Below the pieces are notes generated by a model. The model had not been told where the DNA came from. It saw only the letters and a list, made by a program, of their open reading frames with translations, and made no database searches. DNA of 35,175 nucleotides from Paenibacillaceae bacterium (GTDB lineage: Bacteria > Bacillota > Bacilli > Paenibacillales > CANHGK01): the NCBI GenBank assembly GCA_947460235.1, contig CANHGK010000008.1, positions 77,453 to 112,627 of the forward strand. Direction: 5' to 3'. This document shows positions 3,521-34,954 of this stretch, piece by piece. Numbering within the stretch: the stretch's first letter is position 1; each line of letters begins with the position of its first letter. The translations under genes were made by a program, and so were the position numbers.

Positions 3521-3623
3521 ATGTTTAAATTGCATTCCAAAGACCTAATTAAATTTTAAGCGACACTACATTTTGGGAGGCAATTAAACGGTTAACGAAG
3601 AATGTTGTAAGTAAGGGGTGATT

Positions 3624-9600: not shown

Positions 9601-9974
9601 GTGGATCGCACCATCAGTTTAATCCAACGAAACCGATTAGTCGCAAGGAAATGATTTATATTTTGCTCCGGCTCGAAAAAGCTGGTTTTTTGAAAATGGA
9701 TACAAAACAAATTCAAAAAACGAAGATCTCATGGTTAATCCGTCGGGATTTGAAGAAGATGCAGACATTTGATTACGTGTGGCAATGGGTCACGCGAAAA
9801 GAAGTTGCGATTATTTTCAATCGAATTTTGAAACGCGGTCCAGTACTTGGCGTGAAGAAATCACCTTGGAAAGATGTGACACTTAAAAATCCGGCATTTT
9901 CGGATTTGTATGAAGCGGCGGTTTCACATCGTGGTCTCATTCAACCGATGAAAGAAACGATCATCAAAAAATAA
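3624..9974 (+). CDS. Giant SLH-anchored surface protein with cadherin-like and tandem-95/Big_9-type repeats
   Basis: About 2,116 residues. Order: signal peptide (hydrophobic LLLTFLLVVILFGVMM, likely cleavage near SLASA); one cadherin-like domain to about residue 145 with acidic ATDPDIGDAF; eight repeats of about 113 residues with the core KVKITSLPxxGKLQLNG, a QEI segment, SFKVSDG and VTPVNDPPTA ends; at least eight shorter Big_9/VCBS-type repeats of about 92 residues (for example DTFTFKANDG); and a C-terminal SLH region with three TRAE-like motifs (VSRSE, ISRKE, VTRKE). SLH domains bind pyruvylated secondary cell wall polymer, so the protein should sit in the S-layer, probably as a calcium-binding adhesin or matrix protein; its ligand is unknown. 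AAGGGGTGA (3613-3621) precedes ATG 3624 and ATG 3630; either could start. The third SLH copy is degenerate. brxC follows after 12 bases and may be co-transcribed. Confidence 0.85.
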   Translation: MTMDGRGFSVKLLLTFLLVVILFGVMMTDYNSIPRSLASANTSPTNIDLNNTMIAENVVAGTSVGLLSATDPDIGDAFVYTLVAGSGDTDNANFVINGAILKTVALPDYESKSVESIRIQVSDQAGGTFERVFSIQISNVNEPPTPTNTTHTINEDEILTCTLADFPYSDPENDALTKVKITSIPVNGKLQLNGTDVTLNQEIIRANILSGLLTFTPVTNASGASYATIGFRVSDGNFLSPMTRNLVVQVNPVNDPPTAQGSTITTLEDTDITINASLFSSYNDIENIPMSAVKITALPLKGSLKLDGIPVSTEQVITVSNLTSGLLKFSPALNGNGISYASISFKVSDGVDYSILDQVIVMNVTPVNDLPNASNQSVTTNEDTTVSFSLNSFGYTDIDGNALNKLKITALPAKGNLQLSGVDTILNQEITAADISGGKLKFIPVANEFGNTYTMFSFKVNDGSAYSTSAFVMTIDVTAVNDAPTAENISVNTLEDISKVITTPLIKFSDIENDQLAKIKITSLPSPSVGKLQRNGVDVTVAQEISRADLDGSLLVYTPAANGNGTPYTTFTYQVSDGQLYSSISYSVTINVGPVNDLPTSTNDSITILEDMTYPLRTTSFRYHDIENTPLSKVKITQLPQVGKLLLVANDVQLNQEITKADIDAGLLTYVPVSNAFGFSYDNIMFQVSDGTGYSLISYKTSFNVTSVSEPPTATNGTITLIEDQTKAFSVSDLGYEDLDLDPLVHVQITSLPKAGKLQVDGIDVLVNQLITKSSIDSGKFQFIPAANGTGIPYATFSFKVYDGQYYSDLMYTLTVNVTPVNDPPTATDGYFEIMEDIKTKVTFDKFNYLDVENDAFTTVKITSLPSFGILQLNSKPVTMNQEISLIDIIAGKLVYAPAMNKYGNPYSSFGFKVFDGKEYSVSNYTMTIVVTSVNDAPSSANQSMMMDIDKSIVLTSKSFSFSDVDKDTLAKVKITSKSKGKLQLNSIDVTNQQEITLADLDAGKLVYTPLAKELGTPYATIGFQVSDGNLYSNLPEYLFTINVVDMNDPPVANDLNVAVVEDTLKKNVFLSATDAEKSPLTYSIVTQSGKGVVVITDVKTGAYTYTPNANENGSDTFTFLANDGVSDSNIATVHVSIQAVNDIPLASSGTLDVEINGSKSGQLIGTDVDGNPLTFKIVSPATKGLVTLNPTTGAFSYQTSSNLPGSDSFTFKGNDGTLDSIVATVNITIHVPNKVPVAENIIMKMVLERGLTKKATLKAEDLDKSPLTFSIVTPPTDGQVVITNSSTGEFTYTAKADATKNDVFYFKVNDGTDDSNVAQVEVWIKPKNYLPITSDGTFSLLEDGELLNHMIASDKDGDPLTFYVYKSPELGNVDITSQSSGEFKYKPGANRNGKDTFQFIVNDGYEESNVSKVTFTISEVNDAPIAHDSTIQVKQNVSKADVLHAEDVDLDKLSYVIVTKPTKGNVSIKNAALAQFLYVAGSTANGTDTFTFKANDGKVDSNIATVTIQIEAPPVPPFIPYTPEEPTPIVPNEKPTAEDQQFTIAEDQSLKTTLKAADPEGASITYRITEQPRHGKVEITNKQTGTLTYIPDVDVNGEDRFKFVASDGNQDSNEAQITITISPVDDAPVMSEIKPINDPIGQKVLTIPFAQLFDHSNAKSADQKPIGFILQNIENGQLKKNGKPVEPGKTKISAGDTLQWTAPLKTYGNVKAFTLLASDDSKNSSSPVSVAIDRKKSNHAPIVQELQLQVSSGKSVDANIVASDSDGDPLQYQMVVGPHKGNVLLNPHSGALKYASTGPKGADQFRVRISDGEDELMMNVTVQVGPASEFPMLLPEPTMLQIAPGAEVSGKIQADMAKPELIEYVVSMPAKFGNLEVNSKTGVYHYVPKEGFSGRDQFAIVAMHGDAKSDPQVIHVEIKNTPQVHKAIMKSYPDGTFKPEQPVSRSELADTIIKVTSIPKLKPSVPRFQDVPKSSANYAAIETVSAYSWIHGGSHHQFNPTKPISRKEMIYILLRLEKAGFLKMDTKQIQKTKISWLIRRDLKKMQTFDYVWQWVTRKEVAIIFNRILKRGPVLGVKKSPWKDVTLKNPAFSDLYEAAVSHRGLIQPMKETIIKK

Positions 9975-12874: not shown

Positions 12875-15800
12875 ATGTTTCAGATGTTAAACAAGTCGCG
12901 GAAATGGATTTCGTTTGTACTCACAGTTGCTTTATTGCTAAGTTTGGTTCCAATTGCTGCAGTAGCAGGTACGTCAGCTGCAAAGAATTTGACGATTTAT
13001 TACAAGTCGGGTTTTAAGGCGCCTTATATCCATCATAATCTAGGCGGTAAATGGACCGTTTCACCGGGAACGGCGCTTGAAGCGTCAGAAATTCCAGGGT
13101 TTTTCAAAATTTCAGTTGACCTTGGTAGTCAAGATTCCTTGACGGCTGTTTTTACTGACCAGTCACAAAAAGCTTGGGATAATAACTATAAGAAGAACTA
13201 TTCATTCCCCGCGGGTACGTACACCGTTTACGGCACATCCGAAGACGGTGGAGGCTCGAATTGGAAGCTCGGCGCACCAGGTGCTGAAGGTTCAAAAGTA
13301 TTATTAGTGTTCAACGCAGGAAAATGGGCGACGCCATTTGTGCATTACACGCTTGCAGCTGACGGCAAAACAGGATGGACAAAAACACCTGGTGAGCCAA
13401 TGAAAATGATCGAGGGCACGTCGTACGCGTACATTGTTAAAGATTTAGGTGCTTCCAAAACGATGCTTGCTGCCTTTAATGACGGTAAAGATGGTTGGGA
13501 TAGCAACAATATGAAAAACTACACCATATCAAGTGGTGTTTACACGGTCGATGGCGGTTCATTGGATGAAGGATTCCCGGTCGCATTAACAGCGGCTTTG
13601 GCCGGCGTTCAACCGATTGAGGGTTCTACACTTACCGATACGCCAGAGCCGACTGCAACACCAGAACCGACTGCAACACCGGAACCGGCTACAACGCCAA
13701 CTCCAACACCAACAGTAATTCCGACAGATGCTCCAACAGCAACACCAGAACCGACAGCAACACCAACGCCGGAATTAGTAACGCCAGAACCGACGGAAAT
13801 ACCGCTTGAAACAGAAGTTCCAACGGCTACTCCAAAGAAAATTATCAAACCGAAACCGATTGTGACGCCAACACCGAAATCAATCGTGAAACAAACAGCA
13901 AAAGTAACACCGAAAGCAACACCAAAAGTAACTGCAAAAGTTACACCAAAAGCAACTGCAAAAACGGTAATTAAAGGAACGTCAACGCCAAAACCAACAG
14001 CGAAAGCAGGTTCTGTTGCGAAACCGCAAGGGACAGCTGTTGTTTATTATCAAAGTGACGCAGATGAAGCTTTTGTTCGATTCCGTACATTTGGCGGAGC
14101 TTGGAAGCCATTGGATGGCGGATACCCAATGAAATCGATTGGTAATGGATATTTCAAAACTACGATTAATCTTGGGACTTCTCGTGGAATTGAAGCGACA
14201 TTTATGGATACGTTAGGTAACGAAGATCCGGGTGAAGGCAATGCGCCATATCGTATTTATCAAGGATCAAGTACGATTGAAGCAGGCACATTACGTGCAG
14301 GAATTCCTACGGCACCGCAACAAAAAGTAACGATCTATTACAGTAATCCATTTCCAAAAGCATATTTTTACTTTAAGCCACAAAACGGTGCGTGGGTCAA
14401 AACGCCAGGCGTACTGATGACTGCTTCCGATTTTGAGGGATTTGTATCTTTGACGGTCCCTGCAGGTAGTTCTAAATCTGTAGAAGGTATTTTTACAAAT
14501 GGTAAAGGCATTTGGGATGATGACAATAATAAGCACTTTATATTTGCGGCTGGTGGAACATTTACCGTTGTAGATGGTCAAGTGATTAAAGGTACGCCGG
14601 AGACATTGCAAGATGATACGAATTTAACGCCTACGGAGACCGCAACACCGAAACCAATCGTAACAAACACGCCGAAACCAGTTTTAACCGCGACACCTGT
14701 AATCAGAGAAACACCAACGCCTAAAGTGGTTGAAACGCCGGCTCCAACGCCAACTGTTGAACCGACAGCAACACCGAAACCGGTAACAGTTGATAATAAA
14801 AATGCACAATTGCTCGGAATTCAAGAACCAGTTACTGGTGCATCATACACACACGTTGTAAACTCGCGTTTGAAATTGGATGCTTCCATCGCAGGAAAAA
14901 CGGCATTGGTTGAAATGTACTATGCAATTGGTTCCGAAGCGTTCCCTGAACAACCGGCATTAACGCAAAAAGCAGTGACAGGTCATGATGATTATTTCTT
15001 CTCTCCTGATTTTGCGAAACTTTCGGATACGAAAGAATTAAAAGTAAAATTTGTTGCAAAAGATAGTTCTGGAACGATTCTTGCATCTGCAGAAGTTGGA
15101 AAAATCGAGAAGAAAACTCCTTCATTTACAATGACTGGAATCAAAGACGGAACAACGTTAATCAAAGAAAACGGCAAAGTGACTGGTTCTCGGTTCGCAG
15201 TTTGGTCCAAACCAGCGACAAAAGTTCAAGTGTGGATTTATGGTTCCGAAGATAAAGGGGAACCAGTCAAAATCATTGATTTGGCGCCGCAAACAGAGAA
15301 AGCATATGGTGGGACGTATTGGGCTGCCGATATCAAATCGGATTCAGTTGTAACATTCGGAGAAGGCACGATGTATGGCCTTCGTGTCTGGGGTCCAAAC
15401 TTTGCTTATAGCCCTGAATGGAGACCTGGTACTGAAGCTGGATTTAAACAAGATGTAGATAGCGACGGTAACCGTTTTAACCCGAACAAATTGTTGATCG
15501 ATCCATATGCACGAGCAATTTCAAAAGAACCTGATTTGAATAACCATATTTATTTGACTGGCGCTGGATTCCGTCAATTCGATACGGCTAAAGATCAAGG
15601 GAAATCAGTCATTCATGATGCGAAATCATATGACTGGGGATCAGATAAACCGATTATGACGCCATGGCAAGATACATCGTTCTACGAAGTGCATGTACGT
15701 GGATTTACAGCGAACAAAAACTCAGGTGTAAGTGCGCCGGGCACGTTCAAAGGAATGTTAGAAAAAGCATCGCATTTTTCAGATTTGGGCGTTTCATCGA

Positions 15801-17395
15801 TTGAATTAATGCCTGTATTCGAAACGCCGAACGAGAACAAAGTTCCGCCTGCTGAGGAAAATTATTGGGGCTATATGACGACGAGTTATTTTACGCCTGA
15901 TCGGAAATTATCCTCTGACAAATCACCACTTGGACCAACACTTGAGTTCCGTGATTTGGTTAAGGGAATGCACAAAGTTGGCAAAGAAGTCATCCTTGAC
16001 GTTGTATTTAACCATACGGCAGAAGGCGGCGTGTACTGGTTAAGCAGAACAGAGACTGTTCATGATAACGGTCGTGTTGCGCTTGTTAGCTTCAAAGGGA
16101 TTGACAACGCATCGTATTATGGCTTATCCAAAGACAAACAAACGTACTCGGATAACACGGGCTGTGGATCGAACTTTAACGTAGCGAATCCGAAAGTAAC
16201 GCAATTCGTATTAGATTCCTTACATTACTGGGTTGAGGATATGCATGTCGACGGTTTCCGATTTGACTTGGCATCCGTACTCACGAATAGTGTTGAAATC
16301 GGCTACCAATGGAACAAACAATCACCACTAATCAACCGAATTATTAAGGAATTTCCGAATACAAAAATGGTTGCAGAACCTTGGGCGATTGGTGACGGTT
16401 CATATCAAGTAGGTAACTTCCCAGCGGGTGCTGATAGCTCATGGGCGGAGTGGCAAGATAAATTCCGTGATACCGTGAAGAAAGTCATTCTTTCTGATCC
16501 AGCAGCGGTCAAAGATCTTCCGACGCGACTTGCAGGTAGTTCCGATCTTTATGGTGATGATGGACGTAAACCATACCACAGCGTGAACTATATTTTATCG
16601 CATGACGGGTTCACGATGAATGACCTTGTAAGCTACAATCAGAAACAAAACAATATGCAATATCCTTACGGACCATCAGATGGCGGTCCTGATAACAACT
16701 TCTCATGGGATCACAATGGTGATGATGCATTACGTAAACAATCAATTCGTGATCTAGCCATGTATTTGTTTACATCCGCGGGTTCACCGATGATGCTCGG
16801 TGGTGACGAAATGCGCCGCACGCAAAAAGGAAATAACAACACGTACAACTTGGATACAGAGATCAACTATTACGACTGGACTTGGATGCAAACGAACGCT
16901 TCTACGTATGAATTCTTTAAAGGAATCATCGGATGGCGCAATCAACATCCAGCATTGAAACGTGGAGATTTCTATACAGGCAAAGATCACAATGGTGATG
17001 GAATTTCCGATATTCAATGGTCCGGTGCACAATTTAACAAGCCAGATTGGACTGGTGAAAGCAAACAAATTGCATGGCGTATTGATGGCGCAAAAGAAGA
17101 AACTGGTGCATCTAAAGATGATAACGACTTCTTTATTGCAGCCAATCACAATACAAGCACAACGACGTTCCAATTGCCACCGAACCATAAAGGCAAGAAG
17201 TGGTATCGCGTTTTAGATACTGCACCATGGGCGGAAAAAGGCGATTCGATCAAAAACAATATCGATTCGATGGATTCGGTAGATGTTGTAAGTGATGGAT
17301 CGTGGACGGATACAGGGGCACAAAACTTCGGAGGAGATAAATCCTATAACTACGAAGTTGGCGGACGTGCAATGGCGATGTTTGTTGAAAAATAA
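12875..17395 (+). CDS. Secreted isoamylase/GlgX-type debranching enzyme (GH13) with four CBM25-like modules
   Basis: Predicted to hydrolyse alpha-1,6 branches of starch or glycogen outside the cell. Order in 1,506 residues: signal peptide (cleavage near AVA, about 31); two CBM25-like modules (about 37-235); Thr/Pro/Lys-rich linker (about 245-385); two more CBM25-like modules (about 388-575); second TP linker; Ig-like domain; isoamylase N-terminal (CBM48-like) domain; GH13 barrel. The core resembles GlgX/isoamylase more than pullulanase (NYWGYMTTSYFTP, VVFNHTAEGG, GIDNASYYGL). Catalytic residues: Asp1131 (DGFRFD), Glu1168 (AEPW), Asp1244 (SHDGF). Modules 1 and 2 keep the His and both Trp typical of CBM25; module 3 lacks the His and the second Trp; module 4 has Tyr for His. 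No SLH or sortase anchor is seen, so it may be released or held through starch. AAGGGAG (12856-12862) supports ATG 12875. Control is probably by CcpA and a MalR-like repressor. Confidence 0.88.
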   Translation: MFQMLNKSRKWISFVLTVALLLSLVPIAAVAGTSAAKNLTIYYKSGFKAPYIHHNLGGKWTVSPGTALEASEIPGFFKISVDLGSQDSLTAVFTDQSQKAWDNNYKKNYSFPAGTYTVYGTSEDGGGSNWKLGAPGAEGSKVLLVFNAGKWATPFVHYTLAADGKTGWTKTPGEPMKMIEGTSYAYIVKDLGASKTMLAAFNDGKDGWDSNNMKNYTISSGVYTVDGGSLDEGFPVALTAALAGVQPIEGSTLTDTPEPTATPEPTATPEPATTPTPTPTVIPTDAPTATPEPTATPTPELVTPEPTEIPLETEVPTATPKKIIKPKPIVTPTPKSIVKQTAKVTPKATPKVTAKVTPKATAKTVIKGTSTPKPTAKAGSVAKPQGTAVVYYQSDADEAFVRFRTFGGAWKPLDGGYPMKSIGNGYFKTTINLGTSRGIEATFMDTLGNEDPGEGNAPYRIYQGSSTIEAGTLRAGIPTAPQQKVTIYYSNPFPKAYFYFKPQNGAWVKTPGVLMTASDFEGFVSLTVPAGSSKSVEGIFTNGKGIWDDDNNKHFIFAAGGTFTVVDGQVIKGTPETLQDDTNLTPTETATPKPIVTNTPKPVLTATPVIRETPTPKVVETPAPTPTVEPTATPKPVTVDNKNAQLLGIQEPVTGASYTHVVNSRLKLDASIAGKTALVEMYYAIGSEAFPEQPALTQKAVTGHDDYFFSPDFAKLSDTKELKVKFVAKDSSGTILASAEVGKIEKKTPSFTMTGIKDGTTLIKENGKVTGSRFAVWSKPATKVQVWIYGSEDKGEPVKIIDLAPQTEKAYGGTYWAADIKSDSVVTFGEGTMYGLRVWGPNFAYSPEWRPGTEAGFKQDVDSDGNRFNPNKLLIDPYARAISKEPDLNNHIYLTGAGFRQFDTAKDQGKSVIHDAKSYDWGSDKPIMTPWQDTSFYEVHVRGFTANKNSGVSAPGTFKGMLEKASHFSDLGVSSIELMPVFETPNENKVPPAEENYWGYMTTSYFTPDRKLSSDKSPLGPTLEFRDLVKGMHKVGKEVILDVVFNHTAEGGVYWLSRTETVHDNGRVALVSFKGIDNASYYGLSKDKQTYSDNTGCGSNFNVANPKVTQFVLDSLHYWVEDMHVDGFRFDLASVLTNSVEIGYQWNKQSPLINRIIKEFPNTKMVAEPWAIGDGSYQVGNFPAGADSSWAEWQDKFRDTVKKVILSDPAAVKDLPTRLAGSSDLYGDDGRKPYHSVNYILSHDGFTMNDLVSYNQKQNNMQYPYGPSDGGPDNNFSWDHNGDDALRKQSIRDLAMYLFTSAGSPMMLGGDEMRRTQKGNNNTYNLDTEINYYDWTWMQTNASTYEFFKGIIGWRNQHPALKRGDFYTGKDHNGDGISDIQWSGAQFNKPDWTGESKQIAWRIDGAKEETGASKDDNDFFIAANHNTSTTTFQLPPNHKGKKWYRVLDTAPWAEKGDSIKNNIDSMDSVDVVSDGSWTDTGAQNFGGDKSYNYEVGGRAMAMFVEK
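13629..13990 (+). repeat. Tandem repeats coding for the Thr/Pro linker
   Basis: Imperfect 18-base units (CCAGAGCCGACTGCAACA and variants) run in tandem from about 13645, coding PEPTAT repeats. A second block at about 13895-13965 codes K-[VA]-T-[PA] repeats. They form the flexible linker between starch-binding modules 2 and 3. Confidence 0.8.
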
Positions 17396-19091: not shown

Positions 19092-19132
19092 AAAAAACGA
19101 CGATGATCTAATTAGATCATCGTCGTTTTTTT
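19092..19132. terminator. Bidirectional terminator between convergent genes
   Basis: Bases 19092-19131 form a perfect 40-base palindrome: an A6 run, ACGACGATGATCTAA and its mirror, then a T run. It serves the glycosyltransferase on the plus strand and the starch-binding pilin on the minus strand, whose stop codon begins at the last palindrome base. Confidence 0.88.
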
Positions 19133-20684
19133 AATAACTGCCCCAAGCATCTGATTTGGTAGTTGTTGTCGTAGGGATCGTATAAATTCGGTTGGTTGTG
19201 CCCGTTTTCTCCCATGTCTTTGTAGTGTTTTGATACATGTAATATTTATAGGTATACGTTGAGTTAGCTGGTAGTGATCTAGTAATTGTCCAATTACCAC
19301 CTGTATTCCAAGACATCAATAGATCAGTTTCGACATTATTCACAAAGTAAGCCATATAGATGTTTTGACCAACTGATGTTACGTAGTTCACTTGGAATGT
19401 TATCGAAACATTCGGAATTGGCGTTGGTGTCGATGTCGGAACCGGAGTCGCAGTCGGTGTTGGCGACGGTGATGCGGTAGGTGCAGGTGTTCCTGCGATC
19501 ACGGTGTTGTTTTGAACCGTATAATTCGTTAATAAAACAGCATAATTTGAACCGCCATTGGTGTCCCAAGTTCCAGAACCATTGTTAAAACAAACCGTTG
19601 CTCCGTTTGCAGCAGCGAGCGAGATTGTATACTGCATATATCCTGAAAACGTTGATGAGGCGGACATAAGCATTCCTGGTGATACCGTCCAACTGCCGCC
19701 GGTTGGTTGATAATGGATGTAAGTTGATGTCCAAGTGTTAGATGGTTTGTAATAAACCGTAACCGTGTTCGGATTCGCGTCGGTTGTTACGCTTACTGAA
19801 TTGGATAATGCAGATAAATTACCATTGATATCTTCGGCTTTAATTGTAAACATGTAGGTTGAGCTTGGAAATAAATTAGAAATAGTAACGGTTGTTGTCG
19901 TACTTGTTGCAATTTCAATCCCGTCTTTATAAATGTGATATAAACTTACTGCATTGTTATCAGTTGATGCCGTCCAGCTTAACGTTGCTGACGTTGTTGA
20001 TTTTGAGGCATTGCTTACGTTTGATGGTGTAGTTGGAGGTGATGAATCTCCAGAAAGTGTGTAGGGCTCTTGTTGGTCGAGTGCGCTTGTCCAATTTAAT
20101 GAACTTAATTTTGTTGTAAATGTTTTCACGGTGCCAGAATTCAATTTATATTCAATCGATAAAATTTCTGCATTTGTTGAACCAGAATTAATTTCAGGAG
20201 TAAAACACGCAATGATGGATGTGATTGCATCGATTCCGGGTAGCGCTCCGTCGTACAATGTGTTCATCACATTGTCATTTCGGTCTGTAATGTAAATTTG
20301 ATTGATTCGGTTATCTAAGGCAGAAGAAGCAAGCGTGAAATCAAACTTAACCTTTCTTCCGATCACTTGAAGTGCATCGTTAAAGTTGATTAACTGTGCA
20401 TCGCTTTTTGACATTAACGGGATCGATGAACAAGCATTGGCACTAGGGAATGAAATTTGTTGCGTATTCACTTTGCGAAGTTCACTTACAATTTTATCAT
20501 TTAAAAACCGGAGTTGATCTTGGGCGACAAGTAAGCTGCTTGAATTACTAAATGATTTTGTAAATTGAAAAATTGCCATTGAACTTAGCATGAGGACAAC
20601 AGATATTAAACTAAGTCCTGCGAGTAATTCTACCAGTGAAAGTCCGCGTTGCTTATTGGTACGATCAATTTTGGGATACAACAT
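19131..20684 (-). CDS. PilW-like minor type IV pilin with Fn3, CBM25 and CBM20-like starch-binding modules
   Basis: 517 residues. The N-terminus is a class III prepilin signal: a basic leader ending in Gly14, then LSLVELLAGL with Glu at mature position 5 and a hydrophobic helix. Residues to about 205 resemble a PilW-like pilin head with one Cys pair (about 85 and 160). Then come Fn3 (about 216-301, LSWTASTDN), CBM25 (about 306-394) with the full set of binding aromatics (YIHY, GGSWTVSPG, GTWDTN), a Thr/Pro/Ser linker (about 399-424), and a CBM20-like module (about 425-517; LMSWNTGGNW, YKYYM, KTWEKTGTTNR, DAW). CBM25 and CBM20 bind starch, so this pilin should display starch-binding domains on or near a pilus tip. 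A GAGGAG site 7 bases ahead supports ATG 20684. It follows the PilV-like gene after 27 bases and is presumably co-transcribed. Confidence 0.88.
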   Translation of the reverse strand: MLYPKIDRTNKQRGLSLVELLAGLSLISVVLMLSSMAIFQFTKSFSNSSSLLVAQDQLRFLNDKIVSELRKVNTQQISFPSANACSSIPLMSKSDAQLINFNDALQVIGRKVKFDFTLASSALDNRINQIYITDRNDNVMNTLYDGALPGIDAITSIIACFTPEINSGSTNAEILSIEYKLNSGTVKTFTTKLSSLNWTSALDQQEPYTLSGDSSPPTTPSNVSNASKSTTSATLSWTASTDNNAVSLYHIYKDGIEIATSTTTTVTISNLFPSSTYMFTIKAEDINGNLSALSNSVSVTTDANPNTVTVYYKPSNTWTSTYIHYQPTGGSWTVSPGMLMSASSTFSGYMQYTISLAAANGATVCFNNGSGTWDTNGGSNYAVLLTNYTVQNNTVIAGTPAPTASPSPTPTATPVPTSTPTPIPNVSITFQVNYVTSVGQNIYMAYFVNNVETDLLMSWNTGGNWTITRSLPANSTYTYKYYMYQNTTKTWEKTGTTNRIYTIPTTTTTKSDAWGSY

Positions 20685-20711
20685 ACTTCAACTCCTCGTT
20701 CTAACGTGAAC

Positions 20712-21383
20712 TTATGAAGGTAGCGGGATATATGCTTCAACTTTATACGGTGATTGACGACTTCCGATTTGAGGACTAACCGTGATGATGAATTTACGTG
20801 TATATTTACATAAATACAAATCAACACCACCTGACGTGGTAACCTTATTATTTGGCATGACCGCTTCAATTTTAACTTGATAGCTTAGTGCTCCGTTTTT
20901 CATTTGAATGCCGAGGTACTCTGGGTAACCTACGGAAATTGGTGTTGTCCCGCAGGAATTAGAAGATTCTCTTTGTACATTTGCTAACTCTTTCAAATTC
21001 AAAACATTATCGGTTTGGTTTGTGTTGATAATGGTGGGAGAGATGGTAGCAAATTTATTGCTGATCGAAGAAAATGCGATGCAGCTGTAAATACCTGACG
21101 TCCCACAAAGTGAACTCTTCAATGAATCATTTGTGTCGGTATAATTGATGCTCAACTCATCCCCAGAATGATAATTTATTAATTTTGTTTTCATATCTTC
21201 CATCACCGAACGGGCGATTTGGACCATTTGATCACGACTAGCTGTGTCTCTTGTTGTATTATAAGAGACATAGATTGCGCTTAAAACACTAACCAAAATA
21301 ATACTGAGTCCAAAGATGCCTACGATCGCATCAATGAGCGAAAATCCTTGTTCAGTAGATCTTGATTTTGGAAGCGTATTCAT
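20712..21383 (-). CDS. PilV-like minor type IV pilin
   Basis: 223 residues with a prepilin leader (MNTLPKSRSTEQG) cut after Gly13, giving FSLIDAIVGIFGL and a hydrophobic helix. Position +5 is Asp, where most major pilins have Glu. The soluble head has four Cys (LCGTSGIYSC, SNSCGT, LYLCKY), suggesting two disulfides. Minor pilins of this kind prime assembly and form the pilus tip complex with PilW and PilX homologues. GGAGG 9 bases before ATG 21383 supports the start. It is the first gene of a two-gene minus-strand operon with the starch-binding pilin and diverges from the PilX-like gene. The head sequence is not one I recognise beyond the class. Confidence 0.8.
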   Translation of the reverse strand: MNTLPKSRSTEQGFSLIDAIVGIFGLSIILVSVLSAIYVSYNTTRDTASRDQMVQIARSVMEDMKTKLINYHSGDELSINYTDTNDSLKSSLCGTSGIYSCIAFSSISNKFATISPTIINTNQTDNVLNLKELANVQRESSNSCGTTPISVGYPEYLGIQMKNGALSYQVKIEAVMPNNKVTTSGGVDLYLCKYTRKFIITVSPQIGSRQSPYKVEAYIPLPS

Positions 21384-21627: not shown

Positions 21628-23580
21628 ATGATGTCAAATCAAACAACCATGCATCGTCAATCCGGAATGGTTTCAATATATATCGTCATTTTGATGGCGT
21701 TAGTCACCATGTTAAGTCTCGCATTTATTCAGATTGTAAACAATAGTTATCTGGCCGTTGAGAAATCAATGAAGAATGAAGATGCGAATTATATTGCTGA
21801 GTCTGGGTTGCTTACTTTGCATAAATTAATCAAAGTAATGAAGGATAAGAGCATTCCGATTACGGATGCTGAAATTATGAGTGTAGCATGTCAACTGAAT
21901 GGCTTAACCTATAATTCAACTGCTAAAGCTTGCTCGACAGGATTAGCAAGCCCCAAATTATCGTTTTCTCAAGGTAGTGGGGATTTTAGTGTTAACTATA
22001 ACGCACAAACATCCGTTATCAAATTTATTTCAAAAGGCACAAACGGCAATCAGGAACGAAACTTGAGCATTCAGTTTTCCAAGAAAGTGACGGCGGCAAC
22101 ATCCGGGTCATGCTCACCAACAAATAAAGATACGTGTATTATTGTTACGACAGCGAGCAGTGCTCCGGTCACTAAATTTGACCGAACAACGAGTACTGGT
22201 ACTTTCCAACAAGTTGTGGATGGAGATGTATTCGCAAATTATAGTCAATTGACAATGGATGCGGATATCGATGCCGTATTCACTTCTGAAGGGTTCGCTA
22301 CACCTCCTCCAACACCAACAACTACTTATACTACGCCTGTTTGTTCGAATAATAATACAACCATCAATTCGAATGATTTAACGACCCAGGCAACCTATAA
22401 TGGCACAATTTGTTCTAAGTATGTTGATGTAAACACTGGGCGGTTAGATATTAACGGGAATCTGTATGCAAGTAATCAATTGTCACTTCGTGGAAATTCA
22501 TTCGGAAATGGTACAACCTACATGATTAAAGTGAATGGCGAAATGGTTGTGAATAATTTCTGGATTTATGACTTGAATCAATATTACAATTGTGCGAACT
22601 ATGTTTGTAACGGTGAACATGGTTTGGAAATTGCAAATAATTTTGTTCTTACAAGCGGAGGAAGTACATTTCTTGCTTCTAATAAATTTACGTCATTTAA
22701 GGTCGGTGGCGACATGATTGTCAAAGGTGATTTGGTTATCGATCACTCGTTTGATAATGCGCTAGAAATTGGCGGAGATTTGATCGTTACTGGTAATTTG
22801 ACAATCAACAAAAGTTTTGGTGGTGGTGGAACTAGTAAAGGTCTATGGGTTGGCGGATCGATCAAAGTTGGTGGAAATATAACCATTAACGATAAAATTG
22901 GGTATATGCGCGTCGGATATCGAGGAAGTTCAGGCGATGGTTATATTAAATGCGGCGGGACATTCACTTCCAATCATTTATACAGTAATCCTCCGAGTGC
23001 TTGGAAAGATGTTGTAACGAATTTACCGATCACAGATATGTCTTATATTACGAGAGATTTAATTGCGAATAATATTCTTGTGAATGGTGATATTTTCTTG
23101 AATGTACGCGGCGGCATCTATTCGAATTCAAATATTTCGATTAACAGTATTAATACTGTGGGTAAGTTGATTGTTGGGAAATCGATGCTTGCGAAGGGAA
23201 ATATTAGTCTCGGTAAACAAATTTCTGGTTTGGAAGTGGCGAATTACTTGATGGCAAAAGGTACTGTTACCGTGGCTCCGATGACGTACACAACTCAGTC
23301 TAGTAGTTATGGGCGAGTAAACAAAATATTGGCCGGTGGAAGAGGGGTGTCGTTTTCCTCTTCTACACAGTCATACGCATTGGATACCTCGACGAATAAA
23401 TATAATGGGTTATCATTTGAACGAATCTGGAGTGGCGGAACATCTGCACTCACATCGGCATATCCGAATCGGGGCGTGTTATTGTTTGGAGATAGCACGA
23501 CGAATTCTTCCGTAACGACGACGACGTCAACGTCCTCAAGTACAAATGAATGGAGTACGATAGATTTCTCTGCAAATTAA
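21628..23580 (+). CDS. PilX-like minor pilin/pilus protein with beta-helix (polymer-forming) body
   Basis: About 650 residues. After a short basic leader with QSG, a long hydrophobic helix (MVSIYIVILMALVTMLSLAF) and NEDANYIAESGLLTLHKLIK match the N-terminus of PilX/GspK-type minor pilins, which commonly lack Glu5. The remainder is unlike normal PilX. It holds Cys-rich segments (YNCANYVCNGEHG, GSCSPTNKDTC) and then many short repeats (VGGDMIVKGDLVIDHS, IGGDLIVTGNLTINKS, VGGSIKVGGNITINDK) that predict a right-handed beta-helix like bactofilin/polymer-forming proteins. The tail is Ser/Thr-rich. GAGGAG at 21618-21623 precedes two adjacent ATGs (21628, 21631); the second has the better spacing. 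The in-frame extension to 21541 has no ribosome site. It diverges from the pilV/pilW-like pair, so it probably belongs to the same pilus tip. Confidence 0.7.
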   Translation: MMSNQTTMHRQSGMVSIYIVILMALVTMLSLAFIQIVNNSYLAVEKSMKNEDANYIAESGLLTLHKLIKVMKDKSIPITDAEIMSVACQLNGLTYNSTAKACSTGLASPKLSFSQGSGDFSVNYNAQTSVIKFISKGTNGNQERNLSIQFSKKVTAATSGSCSPTNKDTCIIVTTASSAPVTKFDRTTSTGTFQQVVDGDVFANYSQLTMDADIDAVFTSEGFATPPPTPTTTYTTPVCSNNNTTINSNDLTTQATYNGTICSKYVDVNTGRLDINGNLYASNQLSLRGNSFGNGTTYMIKVNGEMVVNNFWIYDLNQYYNCANYVCNGEHGLEIANNFVLTSGGSTFLASNKFTSFKVGGDMIVKGDLVIDHSFDNALEIGGDLIVTGNLTINKSFGGGGTSKGLWVGGSIKVGGNITINDKIGYMRVGYRGSSGDGYIKCGGTFTSNHLYSNPPSAWKDVVTNLPITDMSYITRDLIANNILVNGDIFLNVRGGIYSNSNISINSINTVGKLIVGKSMLAKGNISLGKQISGLEVANYLMAKGTVTVAPMTYTTQSSSYGRVNKILAGGRGVSFSSSTQSYALDTSTNKYNGLSFERIWSGGTSALTSAYPNRGVLLFGDSTTNSSVTTTTSTSSSTNEWSTIDFSAN

Positions 23581-23652: not shown

Positions 23653-26205
23653 TTATATTACAAATGAAAATTCAAACATCGTTCCTTCGCCAACGATGCT
23701 AGAAACGCTAATCGTACCGCCCATACGTTCTACTTCCGATTTGACCGCTGCAAGTCCAATTCCTCGTCCAGAAATAGCATCCGCTTGATCATTTGTACTG
23801 AACCCGTCCATAAAAATTAACTCATAAAGTTCTGTTACCGATCGCTCGTCTGCTGCTGATTTACTAATCAAATTTGCCGCGACTGCTTTTTCACGAACAC
23901 GTTCAACTGAAATTCCGCGCCCATCATCACCGATACAGATGATTAGTCGATTGGTTGATTCGCTTTGATGGATTTGTTTAATTTCAACCGAAATGCGTCC
24001 AGTTTCGGATTTATCTGCTTCAATCCGTTCCTCCATCGTTTCAAGACCGTGGTCAACCATGTTTCGGAATACATGGATGAGCGATTTCACAAAACGATGC
24101 CAAATCATTGGGTCGACAAGTTGATCGCCACCTTTGATTTCGATTGCCTCAAGTGGTTTTTGCATGCGTAATGCGAGTTGTTGTGTGAATATAACATAAC
24201 TTGATAACAATTGTTTCAGTGGTTGATAATGCATTTCTCGCCATGCAGATTCAAAAGCAGGAGTAACAGCTTGATCAAGTAATTTACGAATCTGTTGTTC
24301 AAATTTGAACACTTGTTGTTTTTCAAAAGAAATCGTTTCTCTAGATCGTTTTAAACGGGATCCAATCATTCGATCTAACATACTCATTTCTTCTTGAATC
24401 CAACCTAACCAATTGGTTGAGCGGATGAATGCAAGTAGTTCAGATTCGTTTTCATGGAGTTGTTCCCACATGGTTTCGAATTCATGAGCGTAAGTGGCTG
24501 CAATCATCATGCCATATTGTCCAAAACTCCCTTTGAACGTGTGAATATGACGGTAACATTCTTCTAACCACGTATGATTTTCCGTTACGTCCAACCAATA
24601 CGGAATTGTTGTTGAGGAAAACGTTCTGAAATCATGCATTAACGCACGAAACTCTTGCTCATTTGTTAACAATTGGACGATCATGTTTAACGTATTTCTT
24701 TCCTGCAAAATTTTGGACTGTAATGTCACTGATTCTGTTAGGTCGGTTAAAATAATCAACATTGTTTCGTTATCGATCATTTTGCAACTCATCTGAATCG
24801 TTCGATCATTAATCACAAGCTCTTGGGACAACAACTCACACATTAATTGTCGTTGCATTGGGATGCTTGTTTCAAATACGTCAGACATCATTTGTTCTAA
24901 TTGCTCTCTTGCACTGTCCTGCTCGTTTCTGGGAAATAACAACATGGATACTGGCACACCGCTTAATGTTTCTCCCGGTGAAGTCAACCAACGTTGGCAC
25001 GCCGCACTATAGGTAGGATGAACGGCTAATGAATTCCCGATGCTCAAAAACCCTTGGTCGGTTTGATCTAATAATGTTTGAAGTTGGGCAGATGTGACTC
25101 GAATATGTTCCATCAAATCAGAAAGCACATGAATGGCCCCGCCCAATTGACCAATTTCGTCGCGTTGGTCTAACTCAATATCGGCTACTTGCAGCCCAGT
25201 TAAATTTGCTCTGGAATTGGCAAAAGTTTGTGCGCCGATCGATAATTGTTTGATGCGCCGTGAAATGGATCGACCGGCAAAAGTTGAAATAAGAAACGAA
25301 ACGGCCAAACTTAATAATAGCATTAATAAAAAAGTGTTTCGTGTCGACGCGTTGATCGATGCGAGCAGCGGATCGATAGGTATCCGTTCGGTTAACGTCC
25401 AAGGTGCATTATTCATTGATTTTGAAACAGTAACGATTTTTGAATATTCGGTTTGAGATTCTGGCACTCGAATTTGCCAAATTGGATTTGCTTGAACATC
25501 ATTTAGGTCTAACTCGCTCTGATCATTATAAACAAGACCTTCTAAAATCGAAGAGAACGCAGATGCATCAATCTCAATCAGCATAATGTACTCACGATTA
25601 CGATCTTTCATATTTCTGAGCAATGCGCCCATGGAAAACGATGCGGTTTTGTGAGGGGAAGGATGAATGAAAAAACCGTCCGAATTTGTGGGGATCCAAA
25701 CCGGTGCACCGTCTGCCTTGATGATTCGGTTACACCACTTGTATTGCCAATCTGACATACCTAAAAAATTTGTTGGAGTACTCGAGATCATGGCATACGG
25801 TATTTTCATATTGTTGTGATTCGAAACTAAGGATTTTTCAATTAGACGAACGCCTAAAATATTTTTATTTGAGTTTTTATAAATCGTTAAAATATTTGTG
25901 ATCGGTTCACCATATTTAACTTTTTCACCAAAATTCGTGGTTTTCAGCAACTCTCCATTTGTGCGAATCGTTTCATTCAATAAAATTTGTCGGTGTATGG
26001 ATTGATATACATCGAGAAACAAGTCAAGTTTACCTGCGGCTTGATAGACGGATAATTCTGATGCCTTTGTGACTTCGTCTTCTAATGTTTGATTCGCGTG
26101 TGTGTAGGAAATGAAAGAAACCATCGTGGCGACGGCGATTAAGCTAATAAATGCATAATAAAACATTTTTGCACCAACTGTATAAAACCGATCCGTCCAT
26201 TTCAC
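23653..26205 (-). CDS. CheA-like membrane histidine kinase with Cache, HAMP and Hpt domains
   Basis: 850 residues from a GTG start at 26205, chosen because AAAGGAGGA lies 7 bases ahead; the longer frame to 26304 begins inside the terminator of the neighbouring gene. Order: membrane helix (about 10-31), extracellular Cache-like region (to about 305), second helix (TFLLMLLLSLAVSFLIS), HAMP, PAS-like segment (DQGFLSIGNSLAVHPTYS), Hpt domain with His555 in IHTFKGSFGQYG, and CheA-type ATPase (HVFRNMVDHGLE, GDDGRGI, GRGIGLAAVKSEVERMGG). It has no CheW-like or receiver domain, so it must pass phosphate to a separate regulator. It is paralogous to the kinase at the window start. Its position beside the minor pilin genes suggests, but does not show, a role in pilus or motility control. 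Confidence 0.87.
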   Translation of the reverse strand: MKWTDRFYTVGAKMFYYAFISLIAVATMVSFISYTHANQTLEDEVTKASELSVYQAAGKLDLFLDVYQSIHRQILLNETIRTNGELLKTTNFGEKVKYGEPITNILTIYKNSNKNILGVRLIEKSLVSNHNNMKIPYAMISSTPTNFLGMSDWQYKWCNRIIKADGAPVWIPTNSDGFFIHPSPHKTASFSMGALLRNMKDRNREYIMLIEIDASAFSSILEGLVYNDQSELDLNDVQANPIWQIRVPESQTEYSKIVTVSKSMNNAPWTLTERIPIDPLLASINASTRNTFLLMLLLSLAVSFLISTFAGRSISRRIKQLSIGAQTFANSRANLTGLQVADIELDQRDEIGQLGGAIHVLSDLMEHIRVTSAQLQTLLDQTDQGFLSIGNSLAVHPTYSAACQRWLTSPGETLSGVPVSMLLFPRNEQDSAREQLEQMMSDVFETSIPMQRQLMCELLSQELVINDRTIQMSCKMIDNETMLIILTDLTESVTLQSKILQERNTLNMIVQLLTNEQEFRALMHDFRTFSSTTIPYWLDVTENHTWLEECYRHIHTFKGSFGQYGMMIAATYAHEFETMWEQLHENESELLAFIRSTNWLGWIQEEMSMLDRMIGSRLKRSRETISFEKQQVFKFEQQIRKLLDQAVTPAFESAWREMHYQPLKQLLSSYVIFTQQLALRMQKPLEAIEIKGGDQLVDPMIWHRFVKSLIHVFRNMVDHGLETMEERIEADKSETGRISVEIKQIHQSESTNRLIICIGDDGRGISVERVREKAVAANLISKSAADERSVTELYELIFMDGFSTNDQADAISGRGIGLAAVKSEVERMGGTISVSSIVGEGTMFEFSFVI

Positions 26206-26282
26206 GAGCGTTCCTCCTTTTGGAGAATGGTCTTTTGCTTCTTTTACGTATTCGATATTTTCTTTGTTTTTCCTGTAAATTG

Positions 26283-26328
26283 AAAAAATAGACGGAAGTA
26301 GCAACGCTAGTTTGCTATTTCCGTCTAT
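26283..26328 (-). terminator. Rho-independent terminator after the NAGPA-domain gene
   Basis: Read on the minus strand, ATAGACGGAAATAGCAA and TTGCTACTTCCGTCTAT form a 17-base stem (one G-T/A-C change) with a short loop, then a T6 run. It lies 5 bases beyond the stop codon of the gene at 26334. Confidence 0.82.
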
Positions 26329-31568: not shown

Positions 31569-31597
31569 TTGCGAATGATGATATTTTTATGTATGAT
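31569..31597 (+). promoter_or_regulatory. Sigma-A-type promoter of the amylase gene
   Basis: TTGCGA at 31569-31574 and TATGAT at 31592-31597 are 17 bases apart. The predicted start near 31604 lies just ahead of a cre site. Confidence 0.65.
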
Positions 31598-31607
31598 TAT
31601 CAATACG

Positions 31608-31621
31608 TGAAAGCGCTTAAT
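31608..31621 (+). promoter_or_regulatory. CcpA cre site at the amylase transcription start
   Basis: TGAAAGCGCTTAAT keeps the TGAAAGCGCTT core of the cre consensus and begins about 10 bases after the -10 element, a position used in catabolite repression of Bacillus amylase genes. Confidence 0.65.
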
Positions 31622-31657
31622 ATTTGCTTCGTTGTAGAGCATCGGGAGGTTTTTGTT

Positions 31658-34600
31658 GTGAATCGCAAAGTGATACGTTCGTTGTGTGGGGCACTTGCAT
31701 TACTCGTTACAGGACTTAGTTTTCCAATTCATACACTTACATATGAAAACGCTTTCTCAGTCGCGCCTGCGATTGCACTAGCGGCATCTCCAACGGCGAA
31801 TTCTAGTGATGTTGCTGAAATGGCCGCTACGATTGGTGATCTTCCATCAAAAGATAATCCTACAATGATGCAATATTTTGAGTGGTATTTGCCGAACGAC
31901 GGTGAACTTTGGAATAAACTTAACCGTGATGCGAAACATTTAGCGGATGTAGGGATTGATTCCGTTTGGATCCCACCATCATACAAAGGTGGCGGTTCTG
32001 AAGATGTCGGTTATGGTGTTTATGACGTTTACGATCTTGGTGAGTTCGATCAAAAAGGTTCTGTTCGAACCAAGTATGGATTCAAAGATCAGTTGAAGAG
32101 TGCGATCACTGAATTGCACAAGAATAATGTAAGCGTTTACGCAGACGTGGTGATTAACCATAAAGGGAATCAAGACGGTTCTGAAACCGTTCGTGCTGTT
32201 GAAGTAGACCCGCGTAATCGCAATCGCGAAACTTCAGGTGAATATGATATTCAAGCCTACACGAAATTTGAGTTTTGGGGACGCGGCGATAAATATTCAT
32301 CATTTAAGTGGCATGCAAATCACTTTACGGGCAACGATCCGGGCGGTCGTATTTTTCGATTCGTTGGTCCAGGTAAAGGTTGGAATACAGAAGTCGATAC
32401 CGAAAACGGAAGCTATGACTTTTTAATGTTTGCAGATATCGATTACAACAATCCAGAAGTCGTTACCGAAATGAAAAAATGGGGCGCTTGGTTTACAAAC
32501 GAACTTGACTTGGATGGATTCCGATTAGATGCGGTAAAACATATTAAATTTGATTTTATGCGCGATTTCATTTCAAATACACGCAAACAAACTGGTAAAA
32601 ACATATTTGCGGTTGGCGAATACTGGTCTGGAAACGTACAATTACTTGCTAATTACATCAAGAAAACGCAAGGCGTAGCATCATTATTTGACGTCCCACT
32701 GCATTATCGGTTTAACGATGTGTCCAAAGGCAACGGAAACTACGACATGCGTGAAATTTTGAAAGATACATTGAGTGGTACACAACCTGAGTACGCAGTG
32801 ACTTTCGTTGATAATCACGATACACAACCTGGACAAGCGCTTCAATCATTTGTAGGTCAGAACTTTAAGCAACAAGCTTACGGATTCATATTGACCCGCC
32901 AAGAAGGTATTCCATTAGTGTTTTACGGCGACTATTACGGAAATAATGGTCACGGCATGCAATCATACCAAGAAAAGATCGACAAGTTATTAAAAGCACG
33001 TAAGCTTTATGCATATGGGAAACAAACGGATTATATTGATGCACCGGACGTGATCGGTTGGACGCGCCAGGGAGATTCAAGTCATCCCAATTCCGGGCTT
33101 GCAACCGTGATTACTGATGGACAAGCGGGAACGAAAACAATGAATGTTGGTAAAAACCACGCAGGTGAAACGTGGTACGATATGACGGGCAACCGTAGCG
33201 ATACCGTCGTCATTAGTGGGGATGGATCCGCAGAATTTGGCGTGAATGATCATTCAATTTCTGTATATGTAATGAAAGGTGATGTGCCGCGCAAACCGGT
33301 GACGCCTGTCAACGATACGCCTGCACCCAAAGCAACCGTAGCACCAAAAACGCCGGTTCCGACTGAGGATGTAATCGGTACGACGGACAGTGGAACTACG
33401 ACGGAAGATGCAGTAACCATTTACTATCAAACGAAATCAGGTTTTGCGAAACCATATATTTATTTTCATAAAGCTGGAACGGCATGGGGAACGGCGCAAA
33501 CTCTTGCTTTGAACGAAGCAGACAATGAAGGATATGCATCGATTTCGATTCCATTGGGCGGTGCATCTGGTATTGAAGCTGCATTCAATGATAATAATGG
33601 TCATTGGGATAGCCGGAACATGAAAAATTACACTTTTTCAGTCGGTGAATCCACATTTAACCCTGGTAGTGGTAGTTCAGAGGGAACCATCAAATCAGGA
33701 TCACCTAGCGGAAATAAGGCAACGGCAACGCCTAAAGTAGTGGTAACACCGAGACCTACACCTACCCCGGTTGCAATAATTGAAACACCAATGCCACAGC
33801 CAACCGAGGAAGTTGCAGTAGATCCATCGCCAAGCGATGAGGAAGTTGAAGTAAGTTTTACACTCGCTCAAGTTCAACAAGCAATCAAAGCAAAAAAAGC
33901 ACTTCTATTAAATGAATTGAATGGCCGCATTGTGCTCCCGAATGATGCGTTGCAGTTGGTAAAACGTAGCGGTATTGAGTTGGGAATCGGAAATGTGTCG
34001 ATGACGTTTACTTCGGAATTAATGACTTCGATCTTGAAAGCAGCTTCAAAAAATAAATTGCAATTAGAGTCGTTATCCTTACAAGTCACGCAAACGAACC
34101 CTGAGACAAAAGCAGATTTGTTCGAAAAGGCACGACGTATGTCTAATGACGCAGCCCAACCTAGCGGAGACCTTTACGATTTTGATTTGTATTTAACAAC
34201 AAAATCGGGTGACTCGTATGCGATTTCACAATTCGAAAAACCATTATTGGTGCAAGTGAAACTTCCTGCAGGTGCAAATTCGAATGTCATCGGGTTTTAT
34301 CATGTTGATGACGAAGGGAACTTGGAATTCGTCGGTGGCCGTGTCGTCGGTGGTGTCGTTTCTGCGACATTGAAACATTTTAGTACGTATGGATCATTTG
34401 AGTATTACAAAAATTATGATGATATTGATGACTCCAATGAAGCGTCGCAAGCAATACGTGAATTGGCAGCAAAACATATCGTTACTGGTGTAAATGATAC
34501 ACAATTTGCGCCAAATAAAGCGGTAACTCGTGCAGAATTCGCATCGATTCTCGTTCGTGCATTAGGACTAGAAGCTGCAGAACCGTCAACGTTCACCGAT

Positions 34601-34954
34601 GTAAGCAAAAATGCTTGGTACTATGATGCAGTAGCGGCGGCAAGCGGTGCAGGTATCGTGACGGGCAAAGGAACGAATCTTTTCAAACCAAATGCGAAAA
34701 TTACACGTCAGGAAATGGCGGCAATGGTTGTACGTGCATATGAAGGCATCGCAGGCATGACGGTAAGTACGGATGCGATGGTAGATTATGCGGATGTGAA
34801 CAAAATTCAATCGTGGGCACGCGGATATGTTGGTGCGGCGCAACAATTAGAGTTGTTCAAAGGACATGGAAACCGGTTTGATGCGGCAATGTCCACAACA
34901 CGTGCGGAAGCAAGTGTAGCGATTTATAATTTGTTAGCGCTTACTAACAATTAA
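31658..34954 (+). CDS. Cell-surface alpha-amylase (GH13_5 type) with CBM25 and three SLH domains
   Basis: 1,098 residues. Order: signal peptide; GH13 liquefying-type amylase (about 65-545, starting MMQYFEWYLPNDGELW); TP linker; CBM25 (about 582-680); second TP linker; a beta-rich domain common in SLH proteins (about 725-920); three SLH domains (VTRAEF, ITRQEM, TTRAEA). Catalytic residues: Asp291 (GFRLDAVKH), Glu321 (VGEYW), Asp388 (FVDNHD). The 30- and 67-residue spacings equal those of the Bacillus licheniformis amylase triad (231/261/328). It cuts internal alpha-1,4 bonds of starch while held in the S-layer through secondary wall polymer. In the CBM25 the usual His is Tyr (YIYF) but both Trp are present. 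GGGAGG at 31644-31649 points to GTG 31658; the frame from 31589 would begin before the predicted transcription start. Likely repressed by CcpA. Confidence 0.93.
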   Translation: MNRKVIRSLCGALALLVTGLSFPIHTLTYENAFSVAPAIALAASPTANSSDVAEMAATIGDLPSKDNPTMMQYFEWYLPNDGELWNKLNRDAKHLADVGIDSVWIPPSYKGGGSEDVGYGVYDVYDLGEFDQKGSVRTKYGFKDQLKSAITELHKNNVSVYADVVINHKGNQDGSETVRAVEVDPRNRNRETSGEYDIQAYTKFEFWGRGDKYSSFKWHANHFTGNDPGGRIFRFVGPGKGWNTEVDTENGSYDFLMFADIDYNNPEVVTEMKKWGAWFTNELDLDGFRLDAVKHIKFDFMRDFISNTRKQTGKNIFAVGEYWSGNVQLLANYIKKTQGVASLFDVPLHYRFNDVSKGNGNYDMREILKDTLSGTQPEYAVTFVDNHDTQPGQALQSFVGQNFKQQAYGFILTRQEGIPLVFYGDYYGNNGHGMQSYQEKIDKLLKARKLYAYGKQTDYIDAPDVIGWTRQGDSSHPNSGLATVITDGQAGTKTMNVGKNHAGETWYDMTGNRSDTVVISGDGSAEFGVNDHSISVYVMKGDVPRKPVTPVNDTPAPKATVAPKTPVPTEDVIGTTDSGTTTEDAVTIYYQTKSGFAKPYIYFHKAGTAWGTAQTLALNEADNEGYASISIPLGGASGIEAAFNDNNGHWDSRNMKNYTFSVGESTFNPGSGSSEGTIKSGSPSGNKATATPKVVVTPRPTPTPVAIIETPMPQPTEEVAVDPSPSDEEVEVSFTLAQVQQAIKAKKALLLNELNGRIVLPNDALQLVKRSGIELGIGNVSMTFTSELMTSILKAASKNKLQLESLSLQVTQTNPETKADLFEKARRMSNDAAQPSGDLYDFDLYLTTKSGDSYAISQFEKPLLVQVKLPAGANSNVIGFYHVDDEGNLEFVGGRVVGGVVSATLKHFSTYGSFEYYKNYDDIDDSNEASQAIRELAAKHIVTGVNDTQFAPNKAVTRAEFASILVRALGLEAAEPSTFTDVSKNAWYYDAVAAASGAGIVTGKGTNLFKPNAKITRQEMAAMVVRAYEGIAGMTVSTDAMVDYADVNKIQSWARGYVGAAQQLELFKGHGNRFDAAMSTTRAEASVAIYNLLALTNN
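31744..31757 (+). promoter_or_regulatory. Second cre-like site, inside the amylase signal-peptide region
   Basis: TGAAAACGCTTTCT matches the cre form at 13 of 14 positions and lies about 85 bases into the coding sequence. Intragenic cre sites can act as roadblocks, but coincidence is possible. Confidence 0.5.

Follow-up and report, generated by a model that had tools for sequence, protein, structure and literature searches.

A type IV minor pilin carrying CBM25 and CBM20-like modules in a starch-specialised Paenibacillaceae bacterium

Results

The window analysed here is a stretch of 35,175 nucleotides from a Paenibacillaceae bacterium whose genome (G000; 2.72 Mb, 42 contigs) is 99.2% complete. 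Positions 19131..20684 encode, on the minus strand, a protein of 517 residues (J2) that, from Pfam, NCBIfam and blastp, is a prepilin, probably a minor pilin (PilW/GspJ-like), with C-terminal Fn3, CBM25 and CBM20 modules. A preliminary description of this DNA had read a single frame from a prepilin N-terminus through Fn3 and CBM25 to a CBM20-like domain. This reading holds, with every Pfam cut-off passed, once the strand is corrected to minus, where the frame is uninterrupted; the plus strand is stop-rich. The ATG is preceded, at a distance of 7 nt, by the ribosome-binding site GAGGAG (20692..20697, minus strand), and 27 nt separate J2 from the upstream pilin gene I2. A frameshift at the pilin/Fn3 joint, which would have refuted the preliminary description, and a chance fusion at this position were ruled out by the continuous frame, the gene's own ribosome-binding site and the absence of an in-frame stop.

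The pilin module occupies residues 1-211 (20052..20684, minus strand). It matches Pfam N_methyl at residues 10-33 with 22.0 bits against a cut-off of 21.2, and it scores above the cut-off of the NCBIfam GFxxxE prepilin model (TIGR02532). The leader of 14 residues ends in Gly14, followed by Leu15, with the cleavage site placed after Gly14 and with Glu19 as Glu5 of the mature alpha-1 helix; J2 thus satisfies the criteria for a class III prepilin leader, which is short and charged, has Gly(-1) and precedes a hydrophobic alpha-1N with Glu5. A helix followed by beta strands was predicted for the module, at low confidence. In the published definition of a modular pilin (PMC8179133), a short linker connects the N-terminal pilin module with an additional functional module, and J2 meets this definition.

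The arm that follows begins with the Fn3 module (residues 219-298; 19791..20030; Pfam fn3, 34.1 bits) and continues with CBM25 (residues 306-406; 19467..19769), a Thr/Pro-rich linker recognised from its sequence (residues 407-425; 19410..19466) and a divergent CBM20 module (residues 426-510; 19155..19409), all on the minus strand. Both carbohydrate-binding modules, without which the preliminary description would have failed, pass their Pfam cut-offs, CBM_25 with 76.4 bits (E 3e-21) and CBM_20 with 29.2 bits against 23.3. Structure prediction, which had been suggested as a check, gave an AlphaFold model of Fn3-CBM25 with a pLDDT of about 90 that superposes on a CBM25 bound to maltotetraose (2c3w, TMt 0.87) and on the Fn3 domain of chitinase A1 (1k85, TMt 0.91). 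The alignment used for this model included the window's other CBM25 copies and the Fn3 domains of L009 and L010, which aided the model. The His and both Trp expected in the CBM25 site are preserved as His324, Trp332 and Trp373, in register with the solved structures 2c3v and 2laa. The companion statement that the CBM20 part keeps its Trp residues is only half correct. Alignment with the genome's CBM20-like tails and 1ac0 showed that Trp491 (the equivalent of W590 in Aspergillus niger glucoamylase) is kept, as are Lys480 and Asn498, but that the GdW Trp equivalent to Trp543 is lost. W543 and W590 are the two site-1 tryptophans of that CBM20; J2 has the equivalent of one of them and fails the criterion of having both. 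The GdW-column Trp is present in the two other CBM20s of the genome that were scanned with Pfam and in other aligned CBM20-like tails. Because this residue is absent from J2 we term its module CBM20-like; CBM25 is the module to rely on.

Upstream in the same operon lies I2 (20712..21383, minus strand; 223 aa), a PilV/GspI-like minor pilin with the N-terminal motif GFSLID and thus Asp5 in the mature protein. It misses the curated cut-offs (PilV model, 21.7 bits) and is not detected by the N_methyl model, and its assignment rests on resemblance to the N-termini of I1, I3 and K1. The gene of the divergent K-like minor pilin K2 (21628..23580, plus strand; 650 aa) has a ribosome-binding site and start, and its product combines a prepilin-like N-terminus (Gly / MVSIY) with a large domain that appears beta-solenoid-like in a single-sequence fold. 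K2 meets the K-type criterion of no Glu5 and a large extra domain; no family model matched it, and its similarity to the K1 N-terminus is weak (blastp, 22% over 67 aa, 2e-4). A fold search with K2 returned no significant match, and its top match, the tapirin C-terminal domain (E 0.4), is a lead only. When the genome's pilins were compared all against all by blastp, J2 best matched J1 (1e-8) and J3 (2e-6), whose own J labels are positional, and none of the J equivalog cut-offs of NCBIfam was reached. Glu5 is present in all three J and absent from all three K subunits of the genome's trios. We recognised no H gene within the J2 trio. The best explanation of these comparisons, which remain at the level of sequence, is that J2 takes the J (PilW/GspJ-like) role in a minor-pilin trio with I2 and K2.

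Three minor-pilin trios were found in the genome. A locus on contig C3 contains PilB, PilT, PilC, PilD, two major pilins and PilM/N/O, so that a lack of type IV pilus (T4P) assembly genes, another finding that would have overturned the preliminary description, does not apply. Trio 1 lies within this locus in the same divergent layout, K | I-J, and has no extra module; relative G005 (L092) has this layout as well. Trio 3, in the order I-K-J on contig C4 (L023 7996-11390), is flanked by GH57-CBM25 and GH15-CBM25 genes, and its K-like subunit of 800 aa bears nine ricin-type lectin repeats. A second assembly locus on contig C5 (L024 7854-13018) has the order PilB-PilC-PilM-N-O, with no PilT or pilin genes in the stretch read. 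A competence (ComG) pilus was also considered and rejected, the fourth ATPase match (C21) being, in our reading of its sequence and neighbours, CpaF/TadA-like and not ComGA.

The genome is specialised for starch. A protein search with J2 gave 98 match places, and about 40 reading frames match its CBM25 part by our own count, not each of them confirmed with Pfam; identity of these copies to the CBM25 of J2 is mostly below 50%. Four CBM25 are present in a neighbouring secreted enzyme of the GH13 debranching type (12875..17395, plus strand; Pfam), and an alpha-amylase encoded nearby (31589..34954, plus strand) combines CBM25 with three cell-wall (SLH) domains. Fusions of CBM25, often as Fn3-CBM25, were also seen with an M6 peptidase, with two phosphoesterases (PF04185) and with a DUF1349 protein (L072 758-5383; L076 1432-3735; L077 1799-4084; L070 3104-6001), so that the secreted proteins of this genome seem to be tagged for starch quite generally. 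The window further encodes a protein of 2118 aa with many cadherin-like/Big_9 repeats and an SLH domain near its C-terminus (3618-9974). The region is flanked by two possible sensory kinases (23653-26304 and 26-2251), both of which combine Hpt with HATPase and one of which also has HAMP.

The preliminary description had proposed a search of genomes for other prepilin fusions with CBM25 or CBM20. None was found among 56 other genomes scanned for prepilins, and a full-length search of genome G002 likewise gave no orthologue of the J2 fusion; its conservation could not be assessed since no orthologue was found. The 56 genomes were selected, not random, the tally was made by hand, and some prepilins escape the N_methyl model, as I2 does in this case. 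Prepilins above threshold were present in 33 of them (107 in total, mostly three each, the longest 386 aa); G000 has seven, among which the J2 frame (517-518 aa) stands out. No prepilin N-terminus was seen in the CBM25 genes checked in L030-L059, several of which end at the locus edge, and a scan with J2 gave Fn3 relatives only in genome contigs and nothing in viral contigs. CBM25 occurs in 90 of 298 genomes of the order, most having one to a few among the matches listed, and weak PF03423 matches elsewhere in the phylum fall in frames of 100-250 aa.

Among the matches listed, G002, from another family, is the sole similarly CBM25-loaded small genome seen in the order. The J2 pilin part gives no match there. 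A gap of 13 nt separates the I-J-K genes of G002 from an upstream open reading frame (L081 10219-14535, G002:C20) that contains Fn3 and four CBM25 and whose 5' end is past the contig edge. The C-terminal half of the encoded protein can be aligned (24% over 684 aa; Pfam VWA) with the vWA proteins that occupy this position in G007 and G010, orthologues that are without CBM25, and the CBM25 block precedes the strand RKIVIFLSDG and is thus inside the vWA region. Inferring from these two genomes, pilus-locus proteins may have acquired starch modules twice and with different carriers, the J2 pilin in one case and the G002 vWA protein in the other.

Discussion

Taken together our results suggest that J2 is probably a tip-located modular minor pilin that forms, with I2 and K2, an alternative starch-binding tip of a T4P, likely with retraction. 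In such a mechanism PilD would cleave J2 after Gly14 and the pilin module would insert at the filament tip, with the Fn3-CBM25-CBM20 arm pointing outward. Binding of the arm to alpha-1,4-glucan, mainly via CBM25, is inferred, and starch is its likely target because of the roughly 40 CBM25 frames of the genome and the CBM25-bearing vWA protein at the pilus locus of G002. PilB would extend and PilT retract the pilus carrying J2, and a tip attached to a starch granule or a glucan-rich surface could hold the cell or draw it nearer, beside its CBM25-bearing amylases. Our findings support the preliminary description in its suggestion of a pilus that binds starch granules or soluble glucan and perhaps pulls cells to the substrate, although its CBM20 half is weaker than was stated there. 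Several observations weaken this model. There are no expression or binding data, and the C5 locus, in which no PilT was seen, could assemble the J2 trio instead of the C3 machine. I2 has Asp5 and stays below curated cut-offs, K2 rests on weak N-terminal similarity alone, the CBM20 is one site-1 Trp short and the pilin fold is of low confidence.

The same components would allow a shorter structure. The J2 trio might form a membrane-based pseudopilus, or J2 might be an unassembled membrane-anchored starch receptor that retains maltodextrin or amylases at the surface, without any long pilus. The C5 locus, with its PilB, PilC and PilM-O and without PilT or pilin genes, would fit this, and subunits of the I, J and K types are found in type II secretion pseudopili too. 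We consider it improbable given the occurrence of major pilins, PilD and PilT and given that the main T4P locus shares the trio layout; moreover a thick wall and an S-layer, inferred from the SLH proteins, would bury a subunit that is not extended. It is also unlikely that the arm serves to bind the bacteria's own alpha-glucan, as exopolysaccharide or released glycogen, in a pilus for aggregation or biofilm and not for plant starch. CBM25 binds alpha-glucan whatever its source and T4P commonly bind exopolysaccharide, but the many secreted amylases and CBM25 proteins of this genome would degrade such a glucan. Finally, the fusion could be a mere spill-over of CBM25 shuffling with no specific pilus function, as the M6 peptidase, phosphoesterase and DUF1349 fusions may indicate. 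We give this very little credence: the J2 site residues are kept at mostly less than 50% identity to the other copies, which suggests selection, and the G002 vWA protein gained CBM25 separately.

A starch-binding tip presented by J2 leads us to a wider and more speculative idea. The three I-J-K trios, of which the first has no module, the second a J that would bind starch and the third a lectin-bearing K, could be interchangeable tips on one retractable machine that choose among glycan targets and reel the cell to starch granules. We put this forward tentatively, as a possibility with the balance somewhat against it. The genome offers a natural case for asking if a single pilus machine is retargeted by exchanging its minor-pilin sets, and J2 connects T4P with starch degradation in parallel with the separate gain of CBM25 in G002. 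The likely ligand of J2 is legible from its domains and open to direct testing, starch being an easy substrate.

Modular pilins of many architectures have been catalogued, carbohydrate-binding ones included (PMC8179133). The preliminary description had stated that lectin and vWA pilins are known in Gram-positive T4P but knew of no described pilin with starch-binding domains, and our literature search agrees: no starch-binding pilin was found described, although a CBM25 case in the PMC8179133 dataset cannot be excluded. The only paper found that combines CBM25 and pilins concerns Bifidobacterium pilin-related proteins annotated as isopeptide-forming. The design of a module on a pilin is thus known, and as far as could be found its starch-binding version is undescribed. 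The closest parallel in design is with Streptococcus sanguinis PilC and PilB, where a small pilin module in a Gram-positive T4P bears a grafted C-terminal binding module (PMC9934059, PMC8179133). PilC carries a lectin, and modelling puts it at the pilus tip (PMC9934059); PilB carries vWA, and the partner is an I-like pilin, PilA. In contrast to the arm of J2, the ConA-like lectin and the vWA module serve host ligands, and there is no K-like partner. Among insoluble food polymers, cellulose is a known target of pili, and the binding module is usually unrecognisable. Pilins of Ruminococcus albus and R. flavefaciens have been linked to cellulose, and CbpC/GP25 of R. albus, a Gram-positive that degrades polysaccharides, is a type IV pilin that binds the substrate, as is proposed for J2; these reports describe a Pil-family protein with cellulose as ligand and mention no CBM (PMC3672088, PMC4300822). 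Pilus activity is tied to starch in Bifidobacterium adolescentis, in which halo formation or twitching occurred solely with starch and solely in T4P-bearing strains (PMC13091076), but this organism belongs to another phylum, has no reported starch-binding pilin, and its starch effect may be nutritional. In diderm T4P an HIJK/GspIJK tip complex presents the PilC/PilY1 adhesin, with I, J and K types and a K without Glu5 as in the J2 trio; there the adhesin is a separate protein and here J2 itself bears the modules, with no H gene recognised. Within the genome itself the tail of J2 has the CBM25-linker-CBM20 order of the CBM25-CBM20 amylases (e.g. L068), where it sits on a catalytic GH13 enzyme and its CBM20 retains the GdW-type Trp.
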